Of a stretch of DNA of 31,704 bases, positions 451 through 31,078 are shown piece by piece. The DNA is from a virus. A model generated the notes under the pieces. It worked only from the letters and a program-made list of their open reading frames with translations, made no database searches and had not been told where the DNA came from. The position numbers and the translations under genes are program-made. Within the stretch, counting starts at the first letter, position 1; each line of letters starts with the position of its first letter. The DNA lies in the IMG/VR virus record IMGVR_UViG_3300044616_002294, positions 1-31,704 of that record. The stretch is one strand, 5' to 3'.

Positions 451-467
451 GTAACCGGCCTCGCGAG

Positions 468-496
468 TTTAGAAGATTCCACCGACACTTTAGAAA
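468..496 (+). promoter_or_regulatory. putative left-end transposase binding sites (two)
   Basis: Two cores, TTTAGAA at 468-474 and TTTAGAA at 489-495, lie 21 bp apart, about two helical turns. Read on the minus strand, the inner one continues as TTCTAAAGTGTCGGTGG. It matches the right-end motif TTCTAATCTATCCGTGG at 13 of 17 positions. The right-end cores face the opposite way, so the two ends are inverted relative to each other, like the L and R sites bound by MuA. This is inference from repeat position and orientation. Confidence 0.45.
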
Positions 497-549
497 TTCA
501 TGTCCTTGGTGCGGGTGCAGGTGCCTTGCAGGCCGCGTGCATTATCTGA

Positions 550-2508
550 TCACAGATAGACGATGTTGTCCCTTGGCTGCCGTCTGATGCGGCTGGTGAG
601 GGTGCCGAAGTCTGCCCTGGCGGGTGCGCCTAGGTCGATGGTGGTGCGGCCTGACATGATGTCGTGGGAGATGGAGCGGGCGAGGGTCTGCATGGTGGCA
701 GCGGCGGCGACTGTTCCGGCGAGGTTGTATTTCGCGGCTAGGAGGTTGCTGGCGGTGACCTGATCCGCGATGAGGGTGATGGGCCCTTCCCATGGCACCC
801 AGTTCTGGGCGGCTTGGAGTCCGGCGGCGAGTCCGGCGGGGGGGACGAGGAAATCGTAGGTGAACTCGGAGACGAACTCGCCCGCGACGGTGTAGGCCTG
901 CCCGGTTGCCGGTGCCTTGGATGAGGCGACTGCGCCGCCCTTGAGCGTCGCCACCTTGGTTGCTCCGACGTAGGCCGAGATCACCGCACCGTAGCGGACG
1001 CCGTCCTTGATCCAGAAAACCGTGCGCCCCACGTAAGCCCCGTCCGTGGCGGATGCTCCGGATGCGAGCTTCACCGCGCTCGATGTCGTGCCGCTGGCAA
1101 AAGTCCCTGTGTGGGCGGCGGCGGGGACATTGGCGGTGTCGATCAGGTAGATGGGCAGATCGTCGCCCCTCACTTCCTTGATCAGAGCCGTGTAGATCGG
1201 CACGCCGTTGCCCACGCCGAAGCCTGCGGATGAGTTGGTATGCACATCCGGCATGAGCGCGTTCGCAATCGCTTGCCTGCGCTTCGAATTAAACGGCGGC
1301 GAGGAGGTGCTGCCGTTGCCGTCGTGGATAAAGAAATCGTTAACGAACCACCGAACGAGCCCGGCCTCCGCGAGCAGCCAATCCGGCGCGATAGTCTTGC
1401 CGTCGAGTCCAAGCATCACCGCCGTTTTACCGGCAGGGATCGTGGTTTCCACCGACTCGTAGGTGCCGCTACTGACGGCATCTTCGTAGAGCTCCCGCCC
1501 GTTTATCAGTTTCGCCCTGCTCGCCGTGAAGACGTAAGGATCGATGATCCGCCCGGCGTAAACGATGGCATCTGGCCAAGCCGCCGCGAGTTTCATGAGA
1601 GCTGGATCCGAGTTCTGGATCGCCAGAGCCGGGTTTGTCGTCGCGTAGTAAACCGGGATCCGCTCGATGCTTTCCACGGGGAGGAAGTCCACGATCTCCG
1701 GCCCACTGACTGTCACGATCTGGCGTTTTCCGGCGGCGGCGGTTCCTGACGCTTGGCTGGCCCAGGAGGGGAGTCCGGTGGTGGCGTTGCGGGTGATGTA
1801 ATCGAGCCGCGAGTAGGTCACCTCCAGATCGAGGCGGGGGGTGATGTCTTGGTCGATGACCGCGTCCGTGCCGATGGTGTAGGTCGTTGCGGAAAAAGCC
1901 CCGCGCCTGCCGACGTTCAGGATCGGCGTGGCGTCTCCGGTGGTGTCCGAGTAGTCGAACCATGCGACGGCATCCGGCACCCATGCCATGAGCTCGGCCA
2001 AGGCTTGGGCGCAGTTCATTTCCGCGAGGCTCATGTTCGGGGTGTCATACATGGCGGCGACGGTGCCGAGGCGCATGGGTGTGCCGTTGGTGATGGCGCG
2101 GCTGATGAGGGTGGAGACCTTCGTGTTGTGCGCGCCGGTGGGGAAGACGTAGTTGACCCGCTCGGCAGTTACGCCGCCGCCGTCGATCTGGTCGGAGGTA
2201 AGGGGGGTTCTGGTGAGCCACCACCACGCACCTTCTGCGCGGACGGTGATCCTTTTCGATGAGACGCGAGGCTTCGTGACATGCCCGCGGAATTTCCGGA
2301 CACCGTCCAGCCAGAGCTCCACGATCTGCCCGTAATCCGGGACGATGGTGCCCGCTCCAGTGGCATCGAGCGTGGCTGCGCTCCAGGTGAATGAGTCTTC
2401 CGAGAGAGATTGGAAAACGACCTGTGCCGAGTCGATGTTGAGCGTGTGTAGCTCGCGCAATGTGGCATCGAGCGTCCTGCCTGCTTCGCCTTTTATGAAC
2501 CAGCTCAT
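550..2508 (-). CDS. tail hub / baseplate-like protein
   Basis: This 652-residue protein is the last gene of the late operon. Its ATG overlaps the stop of the tape-measure gene by four bases (ATGA, 2505-2508), indicating translational coupling. The first 120 residues (MSWFIKGEAGRTL..., with DYGQIVELWLDGVRKFRGHVTKPR) read like the N-terminal beta-rich part of tail hub or late-control-D-type proteins, where a short barrel is followed by a module that positions the tail tip. The rest is beta-rich and unrecognised. The place right after the tape measure fits a distal tail or hub protein. A second small tail-tip role is possible. I see no peptidoglycan hydrolase motif. Confidence 0.5.
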   Translation of the reverse strand: MSWFIKGEAGRTLDATLRELHTLNIDSAQVVFQSLSEDSFTWSAATLDATGAGTIVPDYGQIVELWLDGVRKFRGHVTKPRVSSKRITVRAEGAWWWLTRTPLTSDQIDGGGVTAERVNYVFPTGAHNTKVSTLISRAITNGTPMRLGTVAAMYDTPNMSLAEMNCAQALAELMAWVPDAVAWFDYSDTTGDATPILNVGRRGAFSATTYTIGTDAVIDQDITPRLDLEVTYSRLDYITRNATTGLPSWASQASGTAAAGKRQIVTVSGPEIVDFLPVESIERIPVYYATTNPALAIQNSDPALMKLAAAWPDAIVYAGRIIDPYVFTASRAKLINGRELYEDAVSSGTYESVETTIPAGKTAVMLGLDGKTIAPDWLLAEAGLVRWFVNDFFIHDGNGSTSSPPFNSKRRQAIANALMPDVHTNSSAGFGVGNGVPIYTALIKEVRGDDLPIYLIDTANVPAAAHTGTFASGTTSSAVKLASGASATDGAYVGRTVFWIKDGVRYGAVISAYVGATKVATLKGGAVASSKAPATGQAYTVAGEFVSEFTYDFLVPPAGLAAGLQAAQNWVPWEGPITLIADQVTASNLLAAKYNLAGTVAAAATMQTLARSISHDIMSGRTTIDLGAPARADFGTLTSRIRRQPRDNIVYL

Positions 2509-4073
2509 CGTCCGGAAAGTTGGTTGACCTGGGCACGCAGGCGGGCTTGTTCCTGTTTTAGGGAGTCGATGCCGCCCGCCATCGAGGAGATGATCGAGTT
2601 CCCCTCAGCCACGATCTGCTGGAAGGACTGCATGTCTGTCTGCACGCCGCTGAGGAGCTGGGAAAGGGCTTGCTGGAAAGCGGTGGTCTCACTGGCGGCG
2701 ATTTTGCCGTCCGCGAGGATGGCATCCGCCCTGGCCTTGGCATCCTGTTGGAGAGCCGTTAGCTCTGATCCGGTGCCGGTGATGCTTTCCACCAGCGCAC
2801 GGCCTTTGTCTGCGGCTTGTTTCTGGATGTCGATCCCGGCGGTGGAGAAGGCCTGATCCACGCCCACCATGATCTCTGCCGTCTTGTTGGTGGCGATCGT
2901 TTCGAGTGCGGCCGCATCGGCTTTGATTTGGTCGAAAGCGTCCTTGGCCTTGATGAGTGAGGTGAAGGCGGCCTGCGCAGACGGACTATCCGCTCCGGCC
3001 TTGGCGTTGGCGCGGGTGAGTTCTGCATCGGCCTGTTGCACCTTTACCCGCGCCTCCTCGATGCCGCGCTGGGCGATGGCGAGATCTTCATTGAGTGCGG
3101 CGATGTCTGCCTGCGCTTGGCGGGCGGTAGCCTGCGCCTGCACCACATTGGGGTCGGCACCGCCTTGGATCGCGGCGGTATCGGAGCTTTGCGCCTGCGC
3201 TTCCTGTAGATCCCTGGCGGATCTTTCCACGCGGATCTTGCGTTCCAGCGCGGCGGTGATGGCGTTCACGGCACCGAGTTCCGCTTCCAGCTTCCCGAGG
3301 CGGATGGTGTTGTCCACCTCGGCATAGAGCTTGGCCTGCTGCTTGGCTTTCTCGATGCCAGCGGCCAAGAGCACGGACTGCTCCGCGCTTCTTTGCAGGT
3401 CATCGAGACCGGCGAGATTCGCGAATCCGGTTGAGACGAAATCCTTGATCGCCTGGAGCGGGTTGGAAACATTCTGGAGCATGTCCACCCAGAGGAAATC
3501 GCCGGGGTTTGTCTCTCGGAGTTTGTCGAGATCGACGCCCGCTTGCTGGAGGTTTCCGAGAAACTCTTGGGTGGCATTGTCCGCCAGCTTGATCGATGCG
3601 AAGACCGCCGCCGCATAGGCTCCGCCGCGTGCCACCGCCGCATCATCCGCCACCGCCGCCTGTCCCTCTGCCTCATTGCGCTGCGCCCTCCTGGCCTTCG
3701 CGTCCTCGACATCCTGCTTTGCCTGTTCGGCGCGATCTTTCTGCGCGGCGGCCAGCGTCTTTTCCTCTTCGGTGAGCTGGCGCGTGGCCTTTGCCTCGTT
3801 TTCCTTGGCGCGGGTGGCAGCCTCGGATTGCCGCTGTGCCTCGGCGGCGGCGGCGCGTCTCTCAGAGGCGGCGCGGCCGTTATCGCCGAAGCCGACCGTC
3901 TCTCCGCCGGGGACTTTTTTGACGGCTTGCTCGGCACGCGCGGCTTCCACGGCGATGCCGCCCATCGCTTGCTTTCCGCTATCGCCTACGTCCTTGATCG
4001 CCTGCGCGGCCTGCTCGGCGGCGGCGAGATCGGCTTCGGTCTTGATTGCGATGGTGATGTCTTTGTCGCTCAT
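2505..4073 (-). CDS. tape measure protein
   Basis: The frame is open further upstream, but the ATG at 4073 (MSDKDITIAIKTEADL) is the sensible start because it lies just after the stop of the preceding gene at 4076. The product is 522 residues, rich in Ala, Glu, Lys and Gln. It has long predicted coiled coils at about residues 60-145 and 230-400, and a short Ala/Val stretch near 150-165. Its composition, length and place between tail tube/fibre genes and the hub gene fit a tape measure that sets tail length. It is short for the family, suggesting a short flexible tail, or that other proteins share the job. Confidence 0.7.
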   Translation of the reverse strand: MSDKDITIAIKTEADLAAAEQAAQAIKDVGDSGKQAMGGIAVEAARAEQAVKKVPGGETVGFGDNGRAASERRAAAAEAQRQSEAATRAKENEAKATRQLTEEEKTLAAAQKDRAEQAKQDVEDAKARRAQRNEAEGQAAVADDAAVARGGAYAAAVFASIKLADNATQEFLGNLQQAGVDLDKLRETNPGDFLWVDMLQNVSNPLQAIKDFVSTGFANLAGLDDLQRSAEQSVLLAAGIEKAKQQAKLYAEVDNTIRLGKLEAELGAVNAITAALERKIRVERSARDLQEAQAQSSDTAAIQGGADPNVVQAQATARQAQADIAALNEDLAIAQRGIEEARVKVQQADAELTRANAKAGADSPSAQAAFTSLIKAKDAFDQIKADAAALETIATNKTAEIMVGVDQAFSTAGIDIQKQAADKGRALVESITGTGSELTALQQDAKARADAILADGKIAASETTAFQQALSQLLSGVQTDMQSFQQIVAEGNSIISSMAGGIDSLKQEQARLRAQVNQLSGR

Positions 4074-4075
4074 GG

Positions 4076-5152
4076 TCAGACGGCGGTGATGGTGGGTGTG
4101 CCGGTGGCGGTCGGAGCTCCGCCAAAGGATGCGGCTGGGAACCATCCCGTGGCACTCGCCGGAGTTGGCACTGATCCTGTGGTCTGGACGGACGCTGCCC
4201 AGACGCTGCCTGCGCTCACGGATGTCTGGTAACGCATCCGCCAGAATCCGATGCCGGTTTCCAGCGGATCCACCCACATGACCTGGATCGTTGGGTAGGT
4301 CACAAAGGGGTTGGCGGAGGTGTAAACTGGCAGCCCGTGTATGTCCGTGCTGGTCTGGTAATAGATGCCAGTGGCGTCCGGGGTGAGCGTGCCGGCTACC
4401 ATCATGCCCGGCACGACCGGAGCCGAGCCATCGCCCGGATCGGATGGGGAGAAGCCAGCGAAGGTGAAATCGCCGGGATTGGCAGGAGCGAAGGCGGGTG
4501 CGTCAAAGTCGCCGGGGTCTGCGGGGGAGAAGGCTGCCGCTTCAAAATCGCCCGGATCGAGGGGGGAGAAAGTGGGTGGTTCAAAATCTCCCGGATCGGC
4601 GGGGTTGTAGGAGGCCGCCTCGAAGTCACCGGGATCTGCCGGGGAGAAAGCGGACGCTTCGAAGTCACCGGGATCGGCGGGCGTGAAGGCCGGAATGGTA
4701 AGCGCGGCCTCCGCCGTGGCGACCTGCGCGATGGAGGCGAAAACTAGGCTGTAGCTTGTCGCCATCTCGGAGCTGCCCTTGACAAGGATTCCCGGCTCCA
4801 CCGATGGCACCAGGCACGCGCTGGCCAGCCAATAGCACTCCGCCACGCCCGCAGCCTCGATCTTGAGCGGTTTCTTTACCAGGCTGCCATGGGAGATGAG
4901 CCGCGTCATGACCGCTTTGCAGAGCGCCGCATGGGTCGTCACAGGCTCCATCCGGTCAAAGGAAACGCTTACCGCCCGGTTGCCCGAGTCCCGCAGGAAC
5001 GGCGCGACTGCATCGAGCAGCGGCACCGTCACCGCACCGCGCGTGCTGCCCCACCGGATCTCGGAGGCGAGGCGGTCATCGATGTCGAGGAGCACCACGG
5101 GCGTCCCGGAGGGGTCATAGGTGAGTCTCCAGCTTGAACGGACGTTGGGCAT
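4076..5152 (-). CDS. virion-associated protein with seven DPGDF repeats
   Basis: The product has 358 residues in three parts. Residues 1-150 form an unrecognised globular domain (MPNVRSSWRLTYDPSGTP...). Residues 156-241 hold seven tandem 13-residue units of consensus FSPADPGDFEAAA. Residues 245-358 are a Gly/Thr/Ser-rich, probably beta-stranded C-terminus (QVMWVDPLETGIGFWRMRY). It sits between the tail fibre and the tape measure, so a tail or tail-tip role is likely. The same repeat is found in the small protein at 7142-7447, on the other side of the fibre gene. I know of no assigned function for this repeat. It could be a spacer, a trimerisation element or a surface-display segment. Confidence 0.65.
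   Translation of the reverse strand: MPNVRSSWRLTYDPSGTPVVLLDIDDRLASEIRWGSTRGAVTVPLLDAVAPFLRDSGNRAVSVSFDRMEPVTTHAALCKAVMTRLISHGSLVKKPLKIEAAGVAECYWLASACLVPSVEPGILVKGSSEMATSYSLVFASIAQVATAEAALTIPAFTPADPGDFEASAFSPADPGDFEAASYNPADPGDFEPPTFSPLDPGDFEAAAFSPADPGDFDAPAFAPANPGDFTFAGFSPSDPGDGSAPVVPGMMVAGTLTPDATGIYYQTSTDIHGLPVYTSANPFVTYPTIQVMWVDPLETGIGFWRMRYQTSVSAGSVWAASVQTTGSVPTPASATGWFPAASFGGAPTATGTPTITAV
4430..4687 (-). repeat. seven tandem 39-bp units encoding the DPGDF repeat
   Basis: Seven consecutive 39-bp units encode F-x-P-A-D-P-G-D-F-E-x-x-x. The Pro-(Asp/Asn)-Pro-Gly-Asp core is conserved in every unit, while the three residues after Glu and the one after Phe vary. The DNA is also similar between units (TCxAAxTCxCCxGGATC on the plus strand), so copy number could change by slippage or recombination. 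Confidence 0.9.
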
Positions 5153-11078: not shown

Positions 11079-11084
11079 CTCTTT

Positions 11085-11117
11085 TTAGAATTTAGAATTT
11101 AGAATTTCGTGCTTCGG
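11085..11117. repeat. TTTAGAATT-type intergenic spacer element
   Basis: This is an imperfect tandem of the 8-mer TTTAGAAT ending in GTGCTTCGG, just upstream of the connector gene start. A second copy of the same composite (TTTAGAATTTAG then TGCTTCGG) lies at 16352-16372 in another late-operon gap. It resembles dispersed host intergenic spacers and may carry no phage function. Confidence 0.6.
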
Positions 11118-11171: not shown

Positions 11172-12188
11172 TTACGTGAGGGTCGGTGCTGTCTTGCGGA
11201 TGCCCAGCGAGCTGGTCAGGTCGATGGAGCTGTAATGCTCAACCGTGATCGCCGTGCGCTTGAGGATCGGCGTGATGTAAACGCGGAACATGCCGCCGCC
11301 CGGCACCGCAGTGACGAAGCGTTTGATGTTGCTCGGATCGTTCGGCATGGCACCGGCCTTCGCGTAGTAAGAGAAGACCTTGTTGTCGCCGACCTTGGTC
11401 TTCGCTGTGGCGCTGGCCTGGTAGCGGATCTTCGCCTTAACGACTTTCTCCACTCCGAGCAGCTCGGCGAGTTGTTCCGGCGTGAGGTTGCGCGTCTGGT
11501 GGCGGGCGGCATTGCTGCCCACGCCCAGGCTCAGGAAGCGGCGCAGCCAGGCACCGCCGCAGAATACGACGACGTTGCCATCGATGCCGCGTGCGTCGCC
11601 GCCGAGTTCGAGGTCGGCTGCGATGTTACCGTCCGGATCCGCCGAGGCGTTCGATCCGCCCCAGTTCGGGGTGAGGGCGGTGTCGTTCGCCTCAAGCAAC
11701 GCTTCCGTCCGGTAAATCTCCGTGCGGAGAAGACGGTTGCGGAGGTTAGTGACCGCGCGTTGTTGCACGGCTGGATCCTCGCCGCCCTGGTCGTTGTCCA
11801 GGATCATGGTGAGACCTTTGTTCGCGGTGCGTCCGTTGACCTGTGTGCCTTTCGGGCGGATGTTTGCAAACTCTCCGCCGATTTCGCGGATGTCCTTATC
11901 CGCAAGCATGGCCTGGAAGCTCGCGGTGTCATCCGCTTTCAGGTAGGTGAACGCGCGTCCGACGGGAACCGATGGGGCCATGGCCTCAAGGATCACGTCG
12001 AGACCTTCTTCGTCCGGCGTATCGGCTACGAATTCCGAAAGCGGCTCGGACAGGTGTGCCGAGTCGAAGTTCGCATCGTTGGCCGCGAGGATGATGCCGC
12101 TTTGGGCATCGGTGGTGAACGATCCGAAGAGTTGCGTCGAATCGTTGAGGAGTGCGGAATTGCCCGCGAGCATGAGTAACTTTTTCAT
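11172..12188 (-). CDS. major capsid protein (Mu gpT-like)
   Basis: The 338-residue protein follows the protease/scaffold and decoration genes. The sequence includes PVGRAFTYLKADDTASFQAML, LLRTEIYRTEALLEAND and the late beta segment FVTAVPGGGMFRVYITPIL, consistent with an HK97-fold capsid protein. The N-terminal region (MKKLLMLAGNSALLNDSTQLFG) may be trimmed by the prohead protease. Its position between the protease/scaffold and the DUF1320-like connector is the standard place for the capsid gene in Mu-like phages. Confidence 0.75.
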   Translation of the reverse strand: MKKLLMLAGNSALLNDSTQLFGSFTTDAQSGIILAANDANFDSAHLSEPLSEFVADTPDEEGLDVILEAMAPSVPVGRAFTYLKADDTASFQAMLADKDIREIGGEFANIRPKGTQVNGRTANKGLTMILDNDQGGEDPAVQQRAVTNLRNRLLRTEIYRTEALLEANDTALTPNWGGSNASADPDGNIAADLELGGDARGIDGNVVVFCGGAWLRRFLSLGVGSNAARHQTRNLTPEQLAELLGVEKVVKAKIRYQASATAKTKVGDNKVFSYYAKAGAMPNDPSNIKRFVTAVPGGGMFRVYITPILKRTAITVEHYSSIDLTSSLGIRKTAPTLT

Positions 12189-12215: not shown

Positions 12216-12695
12216 TTATGCGAAGACGAGGCGAACAGGCACGCAGTCCTGCACCTCAATGATGTCTCCATCCGCAGCGGCTGACGTGAGTGTGGTGCCG
12301 ACGAGATAGACGGTTACGCCGGTCGGCGTGTCCTGCACCTTGCCAGCGGCAGCTGTGAAGACCTGCTTGCCTGCGGTGATCGCCTCCGAGGCAACCATTT
12401 TCTTGGTGGGACCCTTGCCGAGCAAGAGCAGGGCTTGGCCTTCGCCAATGGCGGCTTCCACGTTATCCACGGTGCCGAGCGGGCAGGTCGTGGCGTTGTT
12501 GACGGCGATGCCGTTGTCGGTCGCGCCTTGCTGCCAGAGCAGGTGGCGGGCGGTGACGGCGGCGTCGTTTTTGCGGCGCACGGAGGCGTCATGGGTCTCG
12601 ATGGCCGCGTCGTAGGTGTTCGCCGCGAGGCGCAAGCCCCGGATGGCAGACACCAGCGCAGCAACCGCGATGATGATGTGTGTTTTCAGTTTCAT
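12216..12695 (-). CDS. capsid decoration/stabilisation protein (DUF2190-like)
   Basis: The product has 159 residues. The C-terminal half (VFTAAAGKVQDTPTGVTVYLVGTTLTSAAADGDIIEVQ) has the small-barrel pattern of DUF2190-type capsid decoration proteins. The N-terminus has a hydrophobic stretch (HIIIAVAALVSAI) that could resemble a signal segment but is more likely part of the fold or trimmed. It is encoded between scaffold and major capsid, as are head decoration proteins in many phages. Confidence 0.55.
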   Translation of the reverse strand: MKLKTHIIIAVAALVSAIRGLRLAANTYDAAIETHDASVRRKNDAAVTARHLLWQQGATDNGIAVNNATTCPLGTVDNVEAAIGEGQALLLLGKGPTKKMVASEAITAGKQVFTAAAGKVQDTPTGVTVYLVGTTLTSAAADGDIIEVQDCVPVRLVFA

Positions 12696-12771: not shown

Positions 12772-13380
12772 TTAGGCCTTACCGAAAAGCTCCGGGTTCT
12801 TCTTCTGCGCCCGCTGCCAGGCGAGGCGCTTCCGCTCCCCGAGGCTTTGGTTCGGGTTGGTGGCCTGAAATTCGCTTTCCACGAGCTGCGCACGCTCCTC
12901 GCGGGCGGCTTTGCTCTCGTCGTTGGCCGCGAGCACCATGCGGCTCTTCGCGCTGCCCAGGTCGCCGGTCGCGCTGGCGGTCTTCACCTTCGGGGCGGCG
13001 GCGTTGAGTTCCTTGAGTGCATCGGTGAAATCGTTCGCGGCGAGGATCTCGGTCACCTTCGCGTCCTTCTCGGCGGGAGTGATCTTCCCGGCGGCGATGG
13101 CGGAGTCCACGGCATTCGCGGCGGCGGTGGCGAGGTGACCTTCGAGCACGGTCACCTTCTTGTTCGCGGCTTCCTTCTCCTCCTCGGCGAGCCTGGCCTT
13201 TTCCTCGGCGGCTGCTTTTTCCTCCTCCGCCATTTTCAGAGCATCGGGATCCGGAGCTTCGGGCTTCTCCGCATTCGCTGCGGCCTCGGCGGCTTCCTTG
13301 AGGGATGCGATTTTTGCCAGCGCATCCTCAGCGGTGGCACCTTCTTCAAGCCCGAGGGCTGCTAGCAGTTCTGGATTCAT
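12772..13380 (-). CDS. nested scaffold protein (Mu gpZ-like internal start)
   Basis: The in-frame ATG at 13380 begins MNPELLAALGLEEGATAEDALAKIASL. This closely matches the style of the internally started Z scaffold in Mu (from memory). It would give a 202-residue coiled-coil protein identical to the C-terminal half of the protease fusion. No strong ribosome-binding site is visible, only AGAAG a few bases upstream, so independent translation is inferred. Confidence 0.5.
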   Translation of the reverse strand: MNPELLAALGLEEGATAEDALAKIASLKEAAEAAANAEKPEAPDPDALKMAEEEKAAAEEKARLAEEEKEAANKKVTVLEGHLATAAANAVDSAIAAGKITPAEKDAKVTEILAANDFTDALKELNAAAPKVKTASATGDLGSAKSRMVLAANDESKAAREERAQLVESEFQATNPNQSLGERKRLAWQRAQKKNPELFGKA

Positions 13381-16219: not shown

Positions 16220-16351
16220 AGCGCACCTCCTTTGCCATCGCGCCACGAAGCCCTTGCACAGCGTTGCAAGCGGCTTTTTGCGCGATTATCGCCCGTTCCT
16301 TCGGAAAAGTTAGATACCCCCCTAAAATCGCCTCCTACAGCTCTTTTTTCG

Positions 16352-17783: not shown

Positions 17784-18328
17784 CAGAGCAGTTTCGCCGC
17801 CTCCTCCAGCTCCCTCAGCGTTTCCTCGGAAATCCCGCCGCCCGCCTTGGCCTTCGCCGTTGCAGACTCGATGGCTGCCTTGGCCGCTGCGGACTTCTCT
17901 TCCATGAGTTTCAGCTTCCGCGCATCGTGATCCAGCGCCCTGCGCTTCAAGCCCAGCGCCGCCAGCTTCACGTAGCTCTCCACATCGCCCGATTGCAGCG
18001 TCTCCGCCGTGAATACGGTCTGCGCCACCCGCTCGATGTCCTCCGGCGAGATGCTCGGATCCTTCGCCAGCTCCAGCCGCGCCTGGTCGGCACGTTCCGC
18101 CGCCATCTCCATGCGCCGCTTGAGCGCATACCAGGAGTGCCATTCCGAGAGCGTAGCCAAGCCCACGGAGATCCCGTGTGAGTCGAAGACATGCCCGCCC
18201 AGATCCTCCAGCGTGTAGGCCTTCGTCTCCGGATCCGAAGGGTGCAGCAAAAGCCACATGCCCTCCTGGACGTTGTCCGGCAGGTTCTTGAGCTTTGAAT
18301 CCGCCCTCGGTTTTTTCGGTTCCTTCAT
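17783..18328 (-). CDS. terminase small subunit (DUF3486, Mu gp27-like)
   Basis: The 181-residue protein starts MKEPKKPRADSKLKNLPDNVQEGMW. The Lys/Arg-rich start followed by LP-x-x-VQE and a helix-turn-helix-like region ending in HGISVGLATLSEWHSWY is the pattern of DUF3486 small terminases. The second half is a long helix (coiled coil about 115-180). It recognises phage DNA for packaging. It directly precedes the large subunit with a one-base overlap. Confidence 0.8.
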   Translation of the reverse strand: MKEPKKPRADSKLKNLPDNVQEGMWLLLHPSDPETKAYTLEDLGGHVFDSHGISVGLATLSEWHSWYALKRRMEMAAERADQARLELAKDPSISPEDIERVAQTVFTAETLQSGDVESYVKLAALGLKRRALDHDARKLKLMEEKSAAAKAAIESATAKAKAGGGISEETLRELEEAAKLL

Positions 18329-18338
18329 TCACGTTTTG

Positions 18339-19017: not shown

Positions 19018-19332
19018 TCACTCCGCCACCTCCGTTCCATGGCCGCAGTCCACATTCGCCCGGTGCGTGATTTCTTCCATCCGTGTCGATCCGTGTCCAC
19101 TTGTCCGTCGTAGCCTTGCCGAAGTCGGATCCGTGGTTCTCTTCATCTTCTCGAACCGCCTGCTTGCATCCAAAATGCAGACCCCCTGCACCCGCTGCGC
19201 AGGCCAGCTTTTTTCCAAGCCTGCCTGGAGATGCTCCAAGGCCGCGCACAGATCCGCATCGGAGAGCCCGCTCACCGCCGCGACCAGATCCGGTGAGTAG
19301 AGTAGCTCGTTGTATGTCAGCTCCCCGATCAT
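19018..19332 (-). CDS. small lysis-region protein of unknown function
   Basis: The 104-residue protein starts at the ATG sharing one base with the endolysin stop (TGATG). A helical N-terminal half (ELLYSPDLVAAVSGLSDADLCAALEHLQ) is followed by a polar, probably disordered C-terminus. No motif was recognised. Tight coupling to the endolysin gene supports a real gene. Confidence 0.5.
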   Translation of the reverse strand: MIGELTYNELLYSPDLVAAVSGLSDADLCAALEHLQAGLEKSWPAQRVQGVCILDASRRFEKMKRTTDPTSARLRRTSGHGSTRMEEITHRANVDCGHGTEVAE

Positions 19333-19781
19333 CAGAAATCCACGTTGTCCCCCCGGTTGTCGATGTGGACGAAGGACGGGTATTTCAGCCCCATGCCTCC
19401 GGTGAACCAGCCCTCCTTGCGGAGCTGCTTCAGCACCGTGCGCAGCTTCGCTGTCGTGGCCTTAGGTGCGGCCAGATCCAGCGCATCGCACCACATGTGC
19501 CGGGAAAACTTCGCCCCGCCGATGGCCACGTTGTAGGCCGGCGCACGGTAGGCACTGAGGATGATGATCGTGGAACCCAGCCGATCGCGCGCCTCATCCG
19601 CCGCCCGTAGAACCGGCACGAGCCTAGAGCGGATGTCTTTCGGCGGCAGCGCGTTCTTCCCCTGCGCCTTGCCGGATGCGTAGTGGGAATTCCCGAGGAA
19701 CCTCACCTCGTGCGGCTGGAAATGTTTCAGCCCGAGCGTGGCAACCCACCCGTCGAACTCTTCGATCTGCTTCGGTGTCAT
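19332..19781 (-). CDS. endolysin, peptidase M15-type
   Basis: The product has 149 residues. The zinc-ligand pattern of M15 carboxy/endopeptidases is visible: SRHMWCDALDL (His95, Asp102) and FVHID (His139). The upstream segment IIILSAYRAPAYN (73-84) carries the Ser-x-Tyr-Arg typical of the family. It would cleave peptide cross-bridges of peptidoglycan at lysis. There is no signal peptide, so it depends on the holin-like protein encoded just upstream. Confidence 0.85.
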   Translation of the reverse strand: MTPKQIEEFDGWVATLGLKHFQPHEVRFLGNSHYASGKAQGKNALPPKDIRSRLVPVLRAADEARDRLGSTIIILSAYRAPAYNVAIGGAKFSRHMWCDALDLAAPKATTAKLRTVLKQLRKEGWFTGGMGLKYPSFVHIDNRGDNVDF

Positions 19782-21193: not shown

Positions 21194-21829
21194 TCATCGT
21201 TTCCACATCTGCGTGAACCTTCCCCACACGGGATGGATCCACTCGAAATCTTCAATCGGATACTCGCTCGTCGGGTAGCGGTCGTTGATCGGCATGAGCC
21301 GCACCATCCCGCCGGTCAGCTCGATGCGGCGGAAGACGACACCCTCGTTCCTGAATTTCACCACAGCGAAGCAGCCGCTGTAGGGAGCCTCCTCCGACAT
21401 CACCACCAGCACATCGCCGTCCGCGAAGCGCGGCTCCATCGAGTCTCCCTCAAGCCTCACCGCGAACACCTTTTCCTTCGGGCAATCGGTGGCCATCGTT
21501 TCCTGCCAGTCCGCTGGCATCTCGTCATAGACGCTGGCATCGCCCGCGTGCGCCCAGCCGATGATAGGGATCCGCTTTTCCCGCCGCTGCCGTTGCGATC
21601 CGTAGGGCTTGGCGTCCTCCCTCAGCGTGGATCCGGAATCCATCATCCCCGCATCCATCTGCTCCTCCAGCATTCGCAAAAGCGTCTCCACGGCATCGCT
21701 GGGTGTGCGCTTGTCCCCTTCGAGCTGGCTGATGTAGCTCATGCTCAGTCCCATCCGCTCCGCCATTTCAGTCTGGGTGACACCCATCCTTTTTCTGAGC
21801 GCCAGAAGGCGTGTGCAAAATTTATTCAC
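21194..21829 (-). CDS. LexA/CI-type phage repressor (S24 family)
   Basis: A GTG start at 21829 (VNKFCTRLLALRKRMGVTQ) is preferred because the helix-turn-helix then begins near residue 16 (GVTQTEMAERMGLSMSYISQLEG). An upstream extension would run through the operator region. The product has 211 residues. The C-terminal S24 domain has an Ala95-Gly96 cleavage site (GWAHAGDAS) and the nucleophile Ser130 (EGDSMEP). The expected catalytic Lys in the FKKL-type motif is Arg167 (VVFRRIEL). It should hold the divergent early genes off and, since operator half-sites overlap its own start, control itself. Confidence 0.8.
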   Translation of the reverse strand: MNKFCTRLLALRKRMGVTQTEMAERMGLSMSYISQLEGDKRTPSDAVETLLRMLEEQMDAGMMDSGSTLREDAKPYGSQRQRREKRIPIIGWAHAGDASVYDEMPADWQETMATDCPKEKVFAVRLEGDSMEPRFADGDVLVVMSEEAPYSGCFAVVKFRNEGVVFRRIELTGGMVRLMPINDRYPTSEYPIEDFEWIHPVWGRFTQMWKR

Positions 21830-21873
21830 TGTGCGAATTTTCTTAGTTGACTTGATTCGCACTCTGAGCGAAT
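21812..21873. promoter_or_regulatory. operator cluster between repressor and Ner-like gene
   Basis: Half-sites GCGAAT (21833-21838), ATTCGC (21855-21860) and GCGAAT (21868-21873) are present. The last two form a perfect 6-bp palindrome with a 7-nt spacer. GTGCGAAT (21831-21838) and ATTCGCAC (21855-21862) form an 8-bp inverted pair. TGTGC-type direct repeats start at 21812 and 21830. A possible -35 for the early promoter is TTGACT at 21847-21852, with only a poor -10. The cluster overlaps the repressor start and abuts the rightward HTH gene, as a lysis/lysogeny switch should. Confidence 0.6.
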
Positions 21874-21883
21874 TACTGTGCAG

Positions 21884-22093
21884 ATGCAACGCGCAACTGC
21901 TAACACTCAGAAACGACCCCCGCAAGGAGAATTCACACTCCGCGTGAAAACCGCCCTTCTGCGCCGCCACATGAGCGTGAGCGATCTCGCCCGCGATCTC
22001 GGCCTTTCCCGCAACACCGTCTCCCTCGCCATCAATCGCGGCCTCTACGCCCCGACCCGCAAACGCATCGCCAAGCACCTCTCCCTCTCATGA
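21884..22093 (+). CDS. Ner/Cro-like HTH regulator, first early gene
   Basis: The ATG at 21884 gives 69 residues; an in-frame GTG at 21878 is also possible. Residues about 30-55 (MSVSDLARDLGLSRNTVSLAIN) form a clear helix-turn-helix. It is the first rightward gene facing the repressor across the operator cluster, the place of Ner in Mu, where it damps repressor and early transcription. The stop overlaps the next ATG (22090). Confidence 0.7.
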   Translation: MQRATANTQKRPPQGEFTLRVKTALLRRHMSVSDLARDLGLSRNTVSLAINRGLYAPTRKRIAKHLSLS

Positions 22094-22926: not shown

Positions 22927-22959
22927 TCCCCCATGAAACCCCTGACCTCTGATCTTCCC

Positions 22960-23769
22960 ATGCCATCCAACCAACCACCGCTCCTCATCGTCCCGCAATC
23001 CCCTGCGCCGGAAATCACCACGGACTCCCCGCGCAACCCCGCCTGGGACACCGCCCGCGAAACCGCCGCCACCCTCCGCGCCATGGGCCGCCTCTACCTG
23101 CGCGGCCAGGTCAAGCTCGGCATGATCCTCGCAGGCCTCAAAAAGGAGCATGGAATCACCAACGGGAAGCGCCCGTCCACCTTGCCAGAGTCTGGCAAGG
23201 TAGCCCTCACCTGGCCTGAAATCGTCGAACAGGAAACCGGCTACTCCCGCCAATCCGCCGAAGTATTCATCCGCCTTTTCGAGGCCACCGGCGCGAAGCT
23301 CAAGACCTCCAAAAAGCTCGCCCTCCCCGCCCCGGCGAAGAAGGACGCCCTCGCCATCTTCCGCTCCGAGAACCCCCTCGCCCTCACGGAGGAGCAGTGG
23401 CACCTCGTCGATGACGTCATCGGCACCCTCACCGACGGCGAGACACAGGCCAGCCTCATGCGCGAACTCGGGATCCTGCCCAAGCCCGCCCCCATGCCCG
23501 TGAAAAAGGGCGATCCGAAAAAGCCCGACGAGCGCACCGCAGGCCAGCTCGCCTTCCACTTCTTCGACGGCCTCGGCGCGAGCCTCATCAACACCCGCAT
23601 GTCCCCGGACTACCAGAAGCTCCTCCACGCCCTCCCCCTCCATTCCACCGAGGAACAGCCCCTCTCCCTCACCACCCTGGAAACCGAAGCCCGCGCCCTC
23701 CTCGCCGACATCGAGCGCGCCAAGGCCGACGCCGCCAAACACGCCAAGCCCGCCCGCCGCCTGAGCTAA
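22960..23769 (+). CDS. DUF3102-like early protein
   Basis: ATG at 22960 (MPSNQPP) is preferred; an earlier ATG at 22933 would translate a CTGACCTCTGA-type spacer. The product has 269 residues. Residues about 30-110 (ATLRAMGRLYLRGQVKLGMILAGLKKEHG, then WPEIVEQETGYSRQSAEVFIRLFEA) resemble DUF3102-type helical regions of plasmid and phage replication or partition proteins, including an HTH-like GYSRQSAEVFIRL. The C-terminus is Lys/Ala-rich. A long perfect palindrome lies inside the gene. Role unknown. Confidence 0.55.
   Translation: MPSNQPPLLIVPQSPAPEITTDSPRNPAWDTARETAATLRAMGRLYLRGQVKLGMILAGLKKEHGITNGKRPSTLPESGKVALTWPEIVEQETGYSRQSAEVFIRLFEATGAKLKTSKKLALPAPAKKDALAIFRSENPLALTEEQWHLVDDVIGTLTDGETQASLMRELGILPKPAPMPVKKGDPKKPDERTAGQLAFHFFDGLGASLINTRMSPDYQKLLHALPLHSTEEQPLSLTTLETEARALLADIERAKADAAKHAKPARRLS
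23179..23201. repeat. perfect 23-bp palindrome inside the DUF3102-like gene
   Basis: Arms of 11 bp (ACCTTGCCAGA and TCTGGCAAGGT) surround a single G. It encodes TLPESGK in frame, right where the protein passes from a Lys-rich loop (NGKRPS) to the conserved helix. It could be a small mobile palindrome tolerated in a loop, or a binding site. Confidence 0.85.
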
Positions 23770-24672: not shown

Positions 24673-24698
24673 GAGTTGAAATTTGAATTTTGAAATTT

Positions 24699-26849
24699 AT
24701 GCAAACGCTCACCCACGCACCCGCCACCCTCCTCGACCTCATCGCCCGCGAGGGAGGCCTGGCCGATCTCAACCGCCTCAACCCCGGCCAGAAGGATGAC
24801 ATGTTCCGCAAGCTCGGAGCCGTCCAGGCTGTCATGCAGGCGGGGCGCGGCGGCATGTGCCAGGTGAAGAAAACAATCGCCCGCACCCTCGGCATTTCCC
24901 CGCAGGCCATCGATGTCTGGATCAAGGCCTACCGCCAGCACGGCTGGCAAGGCCTCGTCGATCAGCGCCGCCTCGCCGCGAAAGGCCGCAGGCATATCCC
25001 GGACATCACCGCGCAGTGGTTCAAGGATCTCATCACCAGCACCCAGCGCACCGAGGACGGCATGATGGAAGCCCACCGTCAGGTCATCGATCAATGGAAC
25101 CTCTGGCGCAGAACCGGCGATCCCAAGTGGGCGATCCCCGGCTTCCTCAACCCGCCCGCCGATTGCGGGAAAGGCTACCCCGCCGGTTTCAGCTACGAGA
25201 CCTTCCGTAAATGCAAGCCCACCAAGTATCAGCGCAAGCTCGCCAGCCAAGGCACCATCAGCTCCTACCGCGATCTCCCCTCCATCCTCTCCACATGCGT
25301 CGGCACCGAGTATCTCGAATACATCTTCTTCGACGATGAAAAGCCCGACGTCCAGGTGCGCGTCCCCGGCTTCGACCGCCCCATGGTTCCCCTCTGCTTC
25401 CATGCCCTCGACCGCCTGACCCGCTTTCCCTTCCGTCCGCACATCCGCCTCCGCTGGTATGATACCGACGCGCAGACCCACCGCACGCTCACCCAGAAAG
25501 AGTTCGTCTGGTATGTGATCGCCATCCTCGGCACCGAGGGATACCGCACCGATGCCGCTGGCACCACGCTGATCCAGGAGCACGGCACCGCCAAGACCTG
25601 GGAGAACAAAGCCCTCTCCACACCCGACGGCCACCACTCCTTCGAGGAAGCCCTCCACGCCATCACCGGCGGCTGCGTCCGCATGGACAGCTCCGGCCTC
25701 TTCAACAAGCCCGCCTTCGCGGAAATGCTCTACGGCCCGCAGTCATCGGGCAACCCGCGCTTCAAGGCACCCATCGAATCCAGCTTCCACCTCTGGCGCA
25801 CCTACTCGCAGATGCTCATCGGCCAGACCGGCCGCAACGTCGAGAACTCGCCCGAGGAAAACTACGGCATCACGAAATACGAGAAGCAGATCCTCAAGGC
25901 CGTGAAAGACCTGCCGGCCCACATCCAGGACGGCATCCTTTCCAACTACCTCACCGGCGTGGAATTCACCTCCATCGCCGAGCTGATCCGCCACGCCCTG
26001 GCAAACCGCACCGACCACTCCTTCGAAGGCTGGAACGCCCTGAACTTCGTCGAGCCGGTCTGGCGCTGGAAGCAGGATGAACCCGGCATGTGGCGCTCCC
26101 GCAGCGACCTTGCAAAGCTCCCGCAGCACCTCCGCGATCACGCTGCAAGCGAGCAGCGCGAGGATCCCAGCCTCAGCTCCATCATCCCGTGGAGTCCCTC
26201 CATCGCCCGCGCCGTGAAAGCCGCCGATCCGTGCATCAAGAAGCTCTCCCTCTTCGATAGCGTCCACCTCCTCCCCACCTCATGGGCGAAGCCCGTCACC
26301 GTCACCAGCCGCCACGAGATCCACATCACCGAGGAACTCCTCCCCGGCGAGGAACTCATCTACCTCCCGGAACTCACCACCCCGCGCGGCCGCACCGAGT
26401 TCCTCCAGCCCGGCGACAAGCTCATGGCCTACCTCAACCCCATGATGCCGGAAACCCTCATCATCTGCGACATGGAGTTCACCCCCCTCGGCACCTTGAC
26501 AAGGAACGTCCGCCACCACCGCGACAACAACGCCGTCGAGGAAATGTTCAGGCAGCGCGCCCGCCTCCAGGGAGCCATGGAAGCCCCCGTCAAGCGCGCC
26601 ATGCAAGGCCAGATGGATCGCCGCGACGCCGTCCACCAGCTCAACAAGGATCTCATCGCCAAGGCCAACGGCGAGACCCGCTCCGAGAACGAGATCAAGG
26701 CCGAAGCCCGCCACGCCGCCGCCGACAAGGCCGTCACCACCCGCCGCGTCGCCACCTACGAAACCGCAGCGCCCGAGGACATCTTCACCCCCGCCGCCGC
26801 GCAAGCCCCCATCGACGAAGCCGACATCGCCGACTGGCTGAATGACTGA
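24699..26849 (+). CDS. MuA-like DDE transposase
   Basis: ATG at 24699 (MQTLTHAPATLL) gives 716 residues; a TTG three codons earlier would read through a spacer. Residue numbers below use the ATG as 1. An N-terminal HTH region lies at about 40-95 (IARTLGISPQAIDVWIKAYRQHGWQGLVDQ). The RNase H-like core follows with candidate catalytic residues Asp212/213 (IFFDDEK), Glu294 (LIQEHGTA) and Glu360 (FKAPIESSFHLW). A Mu-type C-terminal beta barrel lies near 510-590 (PGDKLMAYLNPMMPETLIIC), then a helical MuB-contacting-like tail. It catalyses strand transfer in integration and replicative transposition. The second acid is Glu where Asp is usual. Confidence 0.85.
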   Translation: MQTLTHAPATLLDLIAREGGLADLNRLNPGQKDDMFRKLGAVQAVMQAGRGGMCQVKKTIARTLGISPQAIDVWIKAYRQHGWQGLVDQRRLAAKGRRHIPDITAQWFKDLITSTQRTEDGMMEAHRQVIDQWNLWRRTGDPKWAIPGFLNPPADCGKGYPAGFSYETFRKCKPTKYQRKLASQGTISSYRDLPSILSTCVGTEYLEYIFFDDEKPDVQVRVPGFDRPMVPLCFHALDRLTRFPFRPHIRLRWYDTDAQTHRTLTQKEFVWYVIAILGTEGYRTDAAGTTLIQEHGTAKTWENKALSTPDGHHSFEEALHAITGGCVRMDSSGLFNKPAFAEMLYGPQSSGNPRFKAPIESSFHLWRTYSQMLIGQTGRNVENSPEENYGITKYEKQILKAVKDLPAHIQDGILSNYLTGVEFTSIAELIRHALANRTDHSFEGWNALNFVEPVWRWKQDEPGMWRSRSDLAKLPQHLRDHAASEQREDPSLSSIIPWSPSIARAVKAADPCIKKLSLFDSVHLLPTSWAKPVTVTSRHEIHITEELLPGEELIYLPELTTPRGRTEFLQPGDKLMAYLNPMMPETLIICDMEFTPLGTLTRNVRHHRDNNAVEEMFRQRARLQGAMEAPVKRAMQGQMDRRDAVHQLNKDLIAKANGETRSENEIKAEARHAAADKAVTTRRVATYETAAPEDIFTPAAAQAPIDEADIADWLND

Positions 26850-27088: not shown

Positions 27089-28186
27089 ATGCCCCACACC
27101 ACCACCATCGAAGCCGAAACGGATCTTGATTCCCGCACCTCACCCGTCGGGAAAAGCGAACTCGCGAAAGCGTCCAGCTCCAAGTCCCGGATCAACATCC
27201 CCTTCAACCTCAACAACTGGAAAGGCCTCGACGAGGAAACCGTCGAGCAGCTCGCCTGGTTCCACCAGCACGCCCTGGAATCCGACCTCTCCTGGAAGCA
27301 ATGCGAGCAGGCGCTCAACTACTCGCAGACCACCGTCTTCCGCGCTTTGAAAGGCGAATACGGCGGCGACCTCGCCAAGGTCATCGCCGCCATCCGCTCC
27401 TACCGCACCATCATCACCGAGCGCACCGCCATCACCAACGCCGACTTCCGCGAGACCCGCATCACCAAGCTCGTCACCGGCGGCCTCAGCTACGCCCTGG
27501 CCAACAACTCCATCACCTCCATCACCGGCGAAAGCCGCATGGGAAAGACCGCCTCCGCGAAATACTGGCGCGACCAGAACAACCACGGCCGCACCGTCTT
27601 CGTCACCGCCCCGGCCTACGGCGGCGCGAAAGCCCTCCTCAAGGAAATCGCCTTCTGCCTCGGCATCAACCGGAACCTTTCCGTCCCGAACATGCACGAC
27701 GCCATCCTCCGCGCCTTCAACCAGAACCGCATGCTCATCGTCGATGAAGCCCACCGCATGCTCCCCAACGACTACCGCTCCAACCCCGTCCTCCTGGAGA
27801 TCCTCCGCGACATCCACGACCGCACCGGCTGCGGCCTCGGCATCCTCGCCACCGAGCGTTTCTCCACCGCCATCGCCAAGTCCGCCTACCAATATGAGCA
27901 GGTGCTTGGCCGCATCGGCATGCCCGTCCGCCTCCCCCGCGAATTCGTCTGGGGCGACGTCGCACCCATCGCCGCGCAATACCTCCCCGACACCCCGAAA
28001 GACCTCGCCTCCGAGCTGCTCAAGATCGCCAACCAGCCCGGCCGCCTCGGCATCGTCTGCGAGACCCTCAAGTTCGCCAGCCGCATCGCCTCCAAGAAGA
28101 AATCCGCCCTCACCCCGGAGATCGTCCGCATGGCCATCGGCACCCGCCACCAGATGATGGGAGAAACCCAATACGCCAAGAAATAA
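27089..28186 (+). CDS. MuB-like AAA ATPase, transposition target selector
   Basis: The product has 365 residues. The N-terminal region has a basic patch (KSELAKASSSKSR) and an HTH-like segment (65-90, LSWKQCEQALNYSQTTVFRAL). The AAA core has Walker A GESRMGKT (147-154) and Walker B MLIVDEAH (215-222), followed by a sensor-like region (LGILATERFS). MuB binds target DNA, delivers it to the transposase and gives target immunity. Placement after the transposase gene is as in Mu. Confidence 0.85.
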   Translation: MPHTTTIEAETDLDSRTSPVGKSELAKASSSKSRINIPFNLNNWKGLDEETVEQLAWFHQHALESDLSWKQCEQALNYSQTTVFRALKGEYGGDLAKVIAAIRSYRTIITERTAITNADFRETRITKLVTGGLSYALANNSITSITGESRMGKTASAKYWRDQNNHGRTVFVTAPAYGGAKALLKEIAFCLGINRNLSVPNMHDAILRAFNQNRMLIVDEAHRMLPNDYRSNPVLLEILRDIHDRTGCGLGILATERFSTAIAKSAYQYEQVLGRIGMPVRLPREFVWGDVAPIAAQYLPDTPKDLASELLKIANQPGRLGIVCETLKFASRIASKKKSALTPEIVRMAIGTRHQMMGETQYAKK

Positions 28187-29143: not shown

Positions 29144-29417
29144 GAGCGGTTCCTCTCTGCCGCCTGTTTGGAATCCGCTCGATGATGAGTTCGAGGAAAT
29201 CCTTGGAGGCTCGTGGGCCGTAATCAGAACCGCAGATGGATGGGAGATTGAATGCCAGCATAGTCAGACGACTCTCCCGCTAAAATCGACCGAAATGGGA
29301 TCCGCGAAAATCGAGGGCAGGAAATTAGCCCGTCAATTCGAGCAGCGATATCTGCCGAACGCTCAAGCGATGGCAGCCGCCGACACCGCCACTCCGACGA
29401 AGGAAACGACTTTATGA
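29118..29417 (+). CDS. hypothetical protein preceding the methyltransferase
   Basis: The product has 99 residues, with VWNPLDDEFEEILGGSWAVIRTADGWEIECQ as its most ordered part. The stop overlaps the methyltransferase start by four bases. Third-position GC is clearly lower here than in the transposition genes, as it is in the methyltransferase, so the two may have come as one cassette. It could be an accessory of the enzyme. Confidence 0.5.
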   Translation: MPLRNKAAKSGSSLPPVWNPLDDEFEEILGGSWAVIRTADGWEIECQHSQTTLPLKSTEMGSAKIEGRKLARQFEQRYLPNAQAMAAADTATPTKETTL

Positions 29418-30193
29418 TACCTGAAACCTACGAAACACCATCGCAGGCGGATTGCCATCCGCGCCTTGTTCATCCTCTTACGGATCACGGGGGGATTGCG
29501 ATCTATCTGGGCGACTGCCTGGACATCATGCCGCAACTGGAAAACGACACCTTCGACGCCGTGGTGACTGATCCGCCATACTCCAGCGGAGGCCGCACGC
29601 AAGCTGCAGCTCGGAACGTGGTCAGCAAATCAGACAGCCGGGAAGCCGATGAGTGGTTCATGGGCGACAACATGGGAGTTGATACCTACATCCGCTGGAT
29701 GCGCCAAATCGCACGGGAAAGCCTGCGCGTGGTGATCCAAGGCGGCCATGCCTACGTCTTCACCGACTGGCGGCAGTTCACGAACCTCTCGACGGCGTGG
29801 GAAAGCATCGGCTGGTCTCTCCGCTCGGTGATCGTCTGGGACAAAGCCAAAGGTGGGGCAATGGGTAGCTTCTGGCGGAACAATCACGAATGGTGCTGCG
29901 TCTTCACGAAAGGCCAGCCAAACCCGCCCGCGCATCGCTCCTGCTTCAACACATGGACAGGATCGAAGCCACAAGGCCACGAACACCCGACGGAAAAGCC
30001 GCTGGGACTCATGACCTACATCATCGGGGCGATCCCGAAAAGCACGGGGAAAATCCTCGAACCGTTCGCAGGCTCTGGCACCACGCTGGAAGCCGCGAAG
30101 CTGTGCGGATTCGGTGCCGTCGGAATCGAACGGAACCCGGTCTATGCCAAAGCCTGCGCCGCCAAGATTTCACAGGGGACGCTCGCTCTATGA
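29414..30193 (+). CDS. DNA methyltransferase (DPPY, beta-class-like)
   Basis: The product has 259 residues. DPPY (53-56) comes before the AdoMet motif FAGSGTT (218-224), the beta-class order of N6-adenine or N4-cytosine methyltransferases. HPTEKP (191-196) is the usual neighbour of the AdoMet pocket. No partner endonuclease gene is visible, so it is an orphan enzyme that may shield phage DNA from host restriction or mark it, a role comparable to mom in Mu though by different chemistry. The target sequence cannot be told. The composition differs from the flanks. Confidence 0.8.
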   Translation: MIPETYETPSQADCHPRLVHPLTDHGGIAIYLGDCLDIMPQLENDTFDAVVTDPPYSSGGRTQAAARNVVSKSDSREADEWFMGDNMGVDTYIRWMRQIARESLRVVIQGGHAYVFTDWRQFTNLSTAWESIGWSLRSVIVWDKAKGGAMGSFWRNNHEWCCVFTKGQPNPPAHRSCFNTWTGSKPQGHEHPTEKPLGLMTYIIGAIPKSTGKILEPFAGSGTTLEAAKLCGFGAVGIERNPVYAKACAAKISQGTLAL

Positions 30194-30235: not shown

Positions 30236-30904
30236 ATGAAAGCCCCCGGCAAAACAGCCCCACGCAAGCCCTCTGCAAAGCCCGTGCAGAAGACCGGCAC
30301 ACCCGGAGAAACCGGCAATCTCTCAAAACCCGAGATCACCAAGTTGCTCCTCCAGGCGAAGGAAGCCTGGGGATACCAGCTCGCCTGCAAAGGCATCCAG
30401 CCCTGCTGCACTTTCGACAACTTCCGCCGCCATCATGTCATGGCCGCCGTCGGCCTCCCCGGAATTTCCAAGCTCAACCGCTCCCACTGGCGCACCGTCA
30501 GCGCCCACTTCCTAACTCTCGCCGGACGCGAGGACGAAGCCTTCGATCTCCTCAACCGCACCGGCGGGAAAACCTATCGCGGCACTAAGCCCGGCGACAC
30601 CTGGGAAACAGCCGAGGCCTACGTCTCCCACATCCGCCAGACCCTCGCCGATCACCTCGCCGTGGATCTCCCGCAGCACATTGAGACCGGCTGGTTCCTC
30701 CACGCCTCCCGCCAGCGCACCGGCAAGCCCAGCCTCACCATGGATACCCTCGCCGAGCGCCTCGATCCCCAGATTCTCCACGGCCTCCTCTCCCACCTCC
30801 GCAACCACATCGCCCTCCGCGAAGGCCGCGCCGATCTCGACCGCAGATCCGCCCGCTCCTACCCCGCCAAGCCCGACCCCGGCCAGATCGACGATCCCTT
30901 CTGA
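30236..30904 (+). CDS. last early gene, function unknown (gp16-like possible)
   Basis: The product has 222 residues, with a basic, Pro/Lys-rich start (residues 1-28). The domain (ITKLLLQAKEAWGYQLACKGI, FRRHHVMAAVGLPGISKLNRSHWRTVSAHFLTLAG) is helical and resembles in outline the gp16/GemA-type proteins of Mu-like phages, which influence host gene expression and supercoiling. I am not sure of this. A second helical half and a Pro-rich tail (KPDPGQIDDPF) follow. It abuts the right end region. Confidence 0.45.
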   Translation: MKAPGKTAPRKPSAKPVQKTGTPGETGNLSKPEITKLLLQAKEAWGYQLACKGIQPCCTFDNFRRHHVMAAVGLPGISKLNRSHWRTVSAHFLTLAGREDEAFDLLNRTGGKTYRGTKPGDTWETAEAYVSHIRQTLADHLAVDLPQHIETGWFLHASRQRTGKPSLTMDTLAERLDPQILHGLLSHLRNHIALREGRADLDRRSARSYPAKPDPGQIDDPF

Positions 30905-30917
30905 CCCTCCGATTTGT

Positions 30918-31060
30918 TTCTAATCTATCCGTGGATTCCCCACGAACCCGCCACAAGCTTCTAATTCTGCCGTTCCAGCCGATTCCCGCCCCCGGCCAAG
31001 CCAAAGCCCTTTGTTTGCGGGATCTTTCGGCCTCCTTCCCCCTCCTTCGGCTTTTCTAAT
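30918..31060 (-). promoter_or_regulatory. putative right-end transposase binding sites (three)
   Basis: TTCTAAT cores start at 30918, 30959 and 31054. The first continues CTATCCGTGG, the second TCTGCCGTTC and the third CTACCTCGAC. The first two share TTCTAATnnnnCCGT and are 41 bp apart. They are inverted relative to the two cores near the left end. The 174 bases of this right-end region carry no gene. TTCTAA also occurs elsewhere by chance, for example at 21183. Confidence 0.45.
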
Positions 31061-31078
31061 CTACCTCGACCCACCGCC

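Follow-up and report, generated by a model that had tools for sequence, protein, structure and literature searches.

The DNA analysed here, called the window throughout, is a complete virus record of 31,704 bases (IMGVR_UViG_3300044616_002294), with the host genome lying outside the record. As judged from its sequence and from that of its relatives, the window very probably carries a whole transposable prophage of the Mu type, 30,629 base pairs (bp) long (450 to 31078), inserted in a 167-codon host gene, with a 4-bp target duplication and with ends reading GG...CC. Within this explanation, sequence comparison itself establishes the insertion and its empty site, the ends with their duplication, and the gene families. 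The element and its junctions comprise the following features.

450 to 31078, no strand: transposable prophage, 5'-GG...CC-3', delimited by comparison with the relatives G001, A, B, C089 and D093
1 to 449, plus strand: 5' portion of the host gene broken by the element (149 full codons plus two bases of codon 150, out of 167), delimited by uninterrupted homologues
31083 to 31137, plus strand: 3' part of the interrupted host gene, including the stop codon, from the joined frame and homologues
31140 to 31583, plus strand: next host gene, Crr6-like (weak match, below the Pfam cut-off), with the same neighbour in L006, L007 and L010
446 to 449, no strand: left copy of the 4-bp target duplication, CCCT, from end comparison and scan
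31079 to 31082, no strand: right copy of the 4-bp target duplication, CCCT, from end comparison and scan
450 to 460, plus strand: left terminus GGTAACCGGCC, conserved in the left ends of relatives as NGTAA(C/G)N(C/G)GCC
469 to 474, plus strand: left end site 1, TTAGAA, starting at base 20, putative transposase-binding site
490 to 495, plus strand: left end site 2, TTAGAA, putative binding site
30918 to 30923, minus strand: right end site at base 156 as counted from the right edge, TTCTAA (minus-strand TTAGAA), putative binding site
30959 to 30964, minus strand: right end site at base 115 as counted from the right edge, putative binding site
31054 to 31059, minus strand: right end site 1, starting at base 20 from the right edge, putative binding site

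An earlier reading of the letters alone (the original prediction) had proposed a complete transposable prophage inside a host gene, flanked by CCCTG, and uninterrupted homologues agreed with the joined protein that it described. CCCTG was found at 446-450 and at 31079-31083, and collapse to one copy produced an open frame of 167 codons which ends in TGA and is followed by CC and then by ATG. In order to find an uninterrupted homologue, as had been suggested, we searched genome_contigs (84,980 species genomes) for the joined host protein by pattern. The pattern fitted 73 stretches, of which seven encode a relative, five of them at full length (54-67% identity), and the titles of these metagenome-assembled genomes name Akkermansiaceae, Verrucomicrobiaceae or Verrucomicrobia. 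All five full-length homologues are 167 amino acids (aa) long and gap-free across the joint (residues 150/151), so that homologues from Akkermansiaceae genomes matched the joined sequence; L011 and L012, which match the host protein only to residues 63 and 39, were excluded from this comparison. Downstream of the uninterrupted homologue, L006, L007 and L010 have the Crr6-like gene found at this place in the window; L008 and L009 lack it there. By these relatives the host would be an Akkermansiaceae-like bacterium (Verrucomicrobia). Within the bacterial family, for which 260 genomes were searched, the host protein gave 21 matches in 19 genomes, 14 of them spanning residues 1-167 without a stop and seven partial. 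None of three candidate stretches in viral_contigs encodes it, and the joined protein matched no Pfam family. The homologues in G135, G254, G007 and G008 stop matching at residues 102/64, 101, 63 and 41, respectively, which may reflect further insertions or a 3' part of this gene that has diverged.

Both host junctions could be read in four related prophages (A, B, C089 and D093) from three genomes. Prophages A and B, which lie on one chromosome of G137, have common ends (left GGTAAGCCGCC, right ...GGAACCC) and different flanks, reading CGGC/CGGC for A and TGGG/TGGG for B; C089 reads GGTAACCCGCC...TTGCC between GAGG/GAGG, and D093 reads CGTAACGCGCC...GGTTCG between CGCT/CGCT. Together with the window these elements occupy five different insertion sites, each with a short target duplication. 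A 4-bp repeat fitted five of the five, and a 5-bp repeat in the same register fitted none. A core of the TTAGAA type begins at base 20 of both ends in all of them (the window being counted from 450), with the variants TAAGAA at the right end of C089 and TGACAA in D093. The terminal bases were GG...CC in four of these elements and CG...CG in one, and the expectation that the ends of the window would not be TG/CA was borne out, since they read GG...CC. TG/CA ends near the proposed edges were rejected; both junctions were read and no matching repeat was found there.

The insertion of D093 breaks the 3' part of another host gene, and keeping one 4-bp copy gives a frame about 18 residues longer. 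Homologues of this gene were drawn from 10 matches in 8 of the 260 genomes, one match being D093's own gene, and the five that we inspected all align over the joint with no gap there. As far as the restored frame and its homologues go, D093 is an independent proof of 4-bp restoration.

Two near-identical prophages of G150 (M1 and M2), a genome of the same bacterial family as G002, have transposases 23-26% identical to that of the window. They begin TGTAACTCGCC and end ...GGGATCA, with flanks CCAAG/CCAAG and GACAG/GACAG, and therefore have TG...CA ends and 5-bp duplications; TGAGAA stands at base 20 of both ends, in the same register as the core of the window. Because these cousins, with the same end anatomy, give TG...CA and 5 bp, the approach separates 4 from 5 bp.

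In the original prediction the duplication was the 5-bp CCCTG and the element ran from 451 to 31078. The repeat of the window is truly five bases long, likewise that of B in the same reading (TGGGG), and Mu makes 5 bp; nevertheless we consider this version quite improbable. A 5-bp repeat in that register fitted two of the five elements, the window and B, where the host base after the 4-bp copy is G, whereas the fifth base is mismatched in A (G/T), C089 (G/T) and D093 (C/G). The fifth matching base of CCCTG is due to chance: the first G of the element happens to equal the next host base. A start at 451 also makes the core sites asymmetric: measured from the edges first proposed, the nearest TTAGAA cores do end at 24 bases on the left and 25 on the right, as had been noted, and when the left edge is shifted one base outward to 450 the inequality vanishes and both cores start at base 20. 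G450 can be assigned to the element because a G precedes GTAA at the left end in the window, in its closest relative G001 and in A, B and C089; the cousin M1 starts TGTAAC in the same register. Base 1 is likewise marked as element sequence, since its left and right copies are complementary in each of the seven elements compared (G/C, C/G or T/A). The left end was thus moved from 451 to G450, and the duplication taken as the 4-bp CCCT.

G001, from IMG/VR, has a transposase 92-95% identical to that of the window. Its alignment to the window starts at base 450 and runs as far as base 31069 near the right end, and G450 lying inside the element is consistent with the point at which this alignment begins. 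The host flanks of G001 are 94 and 73 bases long and mutually unmatched; our guess from such short, unequal flanks is that the contig came from virion DNA or from DNA of several sites.

A pair scan was also performed, requiring NGTAA at the left edge, a near-equal 6-mer (at most one mismatch, ending in AA) at base 20 of both ends, a complementary base 1 and a repeat of 4, 5 or 6 bp. In the window it returned exactly one pair, 450/31078 with CCCT, and none in 200 shuffles of the window, and this end pair is more than a chance match. Controls on six regions gave 10 matches in 1,200 shuffles and none in six reverse complements. Applied to ten regions, the scan gave a single pair for each of five: A, B, C089 and D093, every one with a 4-bp repeat, and M1, with a 5-bp repeat. 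It was designed after the ends of the window, A, B and C089 were known, with those of D093 and M1 already suspected, and so shows consistency and a low background rather than serving as a blind test. Without the GTAA requirement the scan gave many matches everywhere and was uninformative.

Wider pattern searches were performed for both ends. The right-end pattern found G001 alone, and the left-end pattern found nine stretches, namely G001, v117, in which a single window protein was weakly matched, and seven stretches without any match. Across the bacterial family the end pattern occurred at 24 places in 21 of the 260 genomes, six of these places being known ends. Regions were fetched for 12 of the other 18 places; they included a left-end remnant in G127 and two places, in G243 and G132, that look TG-ended with no right end, and the remaining fetched regions had no match to any window protein. 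A relaxed pair scan of ten pattern regions gave two weak matches (g160 and g113), which were not accepted. The remnant in G127 (G127:C4, about 162400; L145) has a near-perfect left end of the A type (GGTAAGCCGCC...TTTAGAA twice) and one matching gene, and a search for its right end found none.

The transposase of the window, 719 aa, adjoins a MuB-type ATPase (phrog_296, E-value 9.9e-39, plus matches to Mu B). Its Pfam matches were to helix-turn-helix (HTH) families, with no catalytic domain of Pfam among them, and phrog_310 matched its N-terminal part only; phrog_310 was matched by all eight transposase relatives, in one over nearly the full length. No tblastn match at E 0.01 was obtained in 50,697 phage records, and relatives were common in the bacterial family (33 of 260 genomes). 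The catalytic residues of MuA are D269, D336 and E392. A weak hhalign alignment to MuA pairs D215 of the window protein with D269 and E297 with D336, and all 30 transposases in the alignment, including those of the 5-bp cousins, keep D215, D216, E297 and E363. The second motif reads E-x-GTA or a near variant in nearly all rows, typically EHGTA or ENGTA, with EWKTA in D093. This conservation suggests a D-E-E triad in place of D-D-E across the whole transposase family, the 5-bp cousins included. An AlphaFold model of the transposase had a mean predicted local distance difference test score of 56.9, too poor for a structure search; profile searches of the PDB returned a weak match to the HTH of TnsB and unrelated chains only, and a search of the open-licence PMC literature for a D-E-E transposase triad gave nothing relevant.

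In a tree of 34 transposases, midpoint-rooted for drawing only, the window, G001, A, B, C089 and D093 fell with eight others on one branch (support 100/99), with L068, L069 and F172 as neighbours of this clade, and M1 and M2 were placed elsewhere. The eight rows E114, H213, I116, J142, L066, L067, L070 and L071 were not read at both ends because of contig breaks or trimmed-looking records. Among the IMG/VR relatives L066-L071, six of six had no left-end site in their first 400 bases and no right junction was found in L066; to all appearance these records were cut at gene ends. To judge from five insertions, the 4-bp duplication would be a property of this clade. We infer that 5 bp is ancestral to 4 bp. 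It is quite possible, if somewhat short of probable, that the Verrucomicrobia clade changed its stagger from 5 to 4 together with its terminal dinucleotide (TG to GG/CG), within a family that has D-E-E as a whole (E[HN]GTA, at the place of MuA D336). The measuring step of the Mu-type machine appears to have changed in this group because four target bases are copied, not five, and the ends are GG/CC, not TG/CA.

Several results weigh against a 4-bp, GG...CC Mu-type prophage. No more than five 4-bp insertions were resolved, two of them in one genome, and the pair scan gave no ends in five of the ten regions (N9, O12, R14, P and Q, the last two being G299 copies). G001 has the same ends (GGTAACC... 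on the left, and GG... on the right), but its flanks read GCGG and ACCC, with no 4- or 5-bp repeat, and of the last eight bases at the right end the window shares with G001 only the final CC. Full-length likeness to MuA is also weak, hhalign giving 88.5% with 30 sequences and nothing with eight. The source of the record is a virus collection (IMG/VR), and by itself a repeat of 4 bp is weak evidence, which would leave room for an assembly join of flanks from different sites with a chance end repeat; this is scarcely conceivable, since other genomes conserve both the joined gene and the gene next to it in that form, which refutes a join at the gene level. The empty-site evidence is unusually clean for such a record. 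That the element is old or defective, a remnant that looks complete but can no longer move, is unlikely but deserves more weight. At 30.6 kb the window element is shorter than A, B, C089 and D093 (34.3-36.7 kb), and G127 holds a remnant with a left end only; against this, the transposase, MuB, portal, protease, terminase and repressor genes have open frames, the ends are exact, as is the duplication, and the unmatched flanks of G001 are such as might come from several insertion sites or from virions. The term intact in the original prediction may be retained to this extent, that the inspected genes have open frames.

For the whole transposable prophage with a 4-bp duplication, a pathway of the Mu kind may be proposed. 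The MuA-like transposase and the MuB-like ATPase would recognise the TTAGAA-core sites near both ends, the element would be cut at 5'-GG...CC-3', and its 3' ends would be joined to the two target strands 4 bases apart; gap repair would then produce the 4-bp duplication, here CCCT. The S24-type repressor would keep the prophage silent.

With Mu and Mu-like phages ('Saltoviridae' as proposed) the window shares a MuB-type gene, a putative MuA-type transposase gene, the Mu portal and protease families, unrelated insertion sites, a short duplication and terminal sites. It differs from Mu in that its clade duplicates 4 bp and Mu 5 bp, in its GG...CC ends compared with TG...CA, in its S24-type repressor, and in that its virion genes run to one end and its transposition genes to the other. 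Phage B3 (Beetrevirus) shares the large terminase. In the B3 record the early genes, that of the transposase among them, point leftward and reach the left end, an arrangement that resembles the early module of the window, which also reaches one end; likeness between the transposases is limited to a 39-residue HTH stretch. According to the accessible part of PMC8705779, Mu duplicates 5 bp and B3 6 bp, in contrast to the 4 bp of the window, and TG-CA is conserved in all Mu- and B3-like DNA so far described, unlike the TA-TA group of transposable prophages in Leptospira. The latter share with the window ends other than TG-CA, but as given in that part of the paper they have 6-bp duplications and TA-TA ends. 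Excerpts of other reports give a 5-bp repeat for Mushu (PMC5883640) and direct repeats not found for KS10 (PMC2628397). In the portion of PMC10367356 available, 4-bp bounding repeats outside the phage ends are already mentioned for the transposable prophages of Porphyromonas gingivalis, placed with Hankyphage in the proposed Alisviridae; those are in Bacteroidota hosts, and the likeness to the window noted here is one of repeat length. By title or start of abstract, the elements described here were not found in the open-licence PMC literature on 4-bp Mu-like duplications or on Mu-like prophages of Verrucomicrobia or Akkermansia.

Mu is the textbook transpososome, and a short duplication with TG/CA ends serves to define such prophages. 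Prophage finders that require 5 or 6 bp and TG/CA would misplace ends such as those of the window by one base or miss them. The presence of a 4-bp GG/CC clade beside 5-bp TG/CA cousins in the same bacterial family makes it possible to ask which residues set the stagger; if the joint reading of stagger, dinucleotide and D-E-E is true, the clade would serve as a natural experiment in how a DDE transpososome fixes its stagger.

Inside the element, the early genes extend as far as the right end, and the virion genes occupy the other side, up to the left end. The genes inspected are given below.

550 to 2508, minus strand: late-module gene, 652 aa, 30-41% identical to genes beside the left end of A, B, C089 and D093
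2505 to 4277, minus strand: late-module gene, 590 aa
5246 to 7120, minus strand: GDSL lipase/acylhydrolase-like virion protein, 624 aa (E-value 3.4e-05, below the Pfam cut-off; phrog_6102)
11172 to 12188, minus strand: major head protein (weak; phrog_1005, E-value 4.7e-05)
12216 to 12695, minus strand: phage cement protein-like, below the Pfam cut-off
12772 to 13968, minus strand: Mu-like prophage I protein / head maturation protease
13958 to 16246, minus strand: Mu-type portal protein
16377 to 18332, minus strand: large terminase, 57.7% identical to the phage B3 terminase over 67% of its length
19332 to 19781, minus strand: M15 peptidase, endolysin-like
21194 to 22078, minus strand: repressor, HTH and S24 peptidase
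22933 to 23769, plus strand: conserved early gene upstream of the transposase
24690 to 26849, plus strand: divergent MuA-like transposase, 719 aa (716 aa from the next ATG, 24699), putative catalytic D215, E297 and E363
27089 to 28186, plus strand: MuB-like transposition ATPase
29414 to 30193, plus strand: N6/N4 DNA methyltransferase
30236 to 30904, plus strand: conserved last early gene adjoining the right end

The Mu-type portal and protease I genes matched PF06074 and PF10123 above the cut-off. The terminase was nearest to those of Mu- and B3-like phages, with 61.7% identity to a Leptolyngbya phage and the value given above for B3, both alignments covering roughly two thirds of the query. 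The terminase match in another IMG/VR relative, G426 (L075), carries two in-frame TGA codons. In one further genome, more than 42 kb are identical across two contigs (G010:C1 and G010:C18), a duplication that continues beyond the fetched stretch, and no junctions were obtained there. Within the element of the window, three tandem TTTAGAA units, 7 bases apart, occur at 11084-11104 with the same core as the end sites, and this internal array could be a regulatory site.

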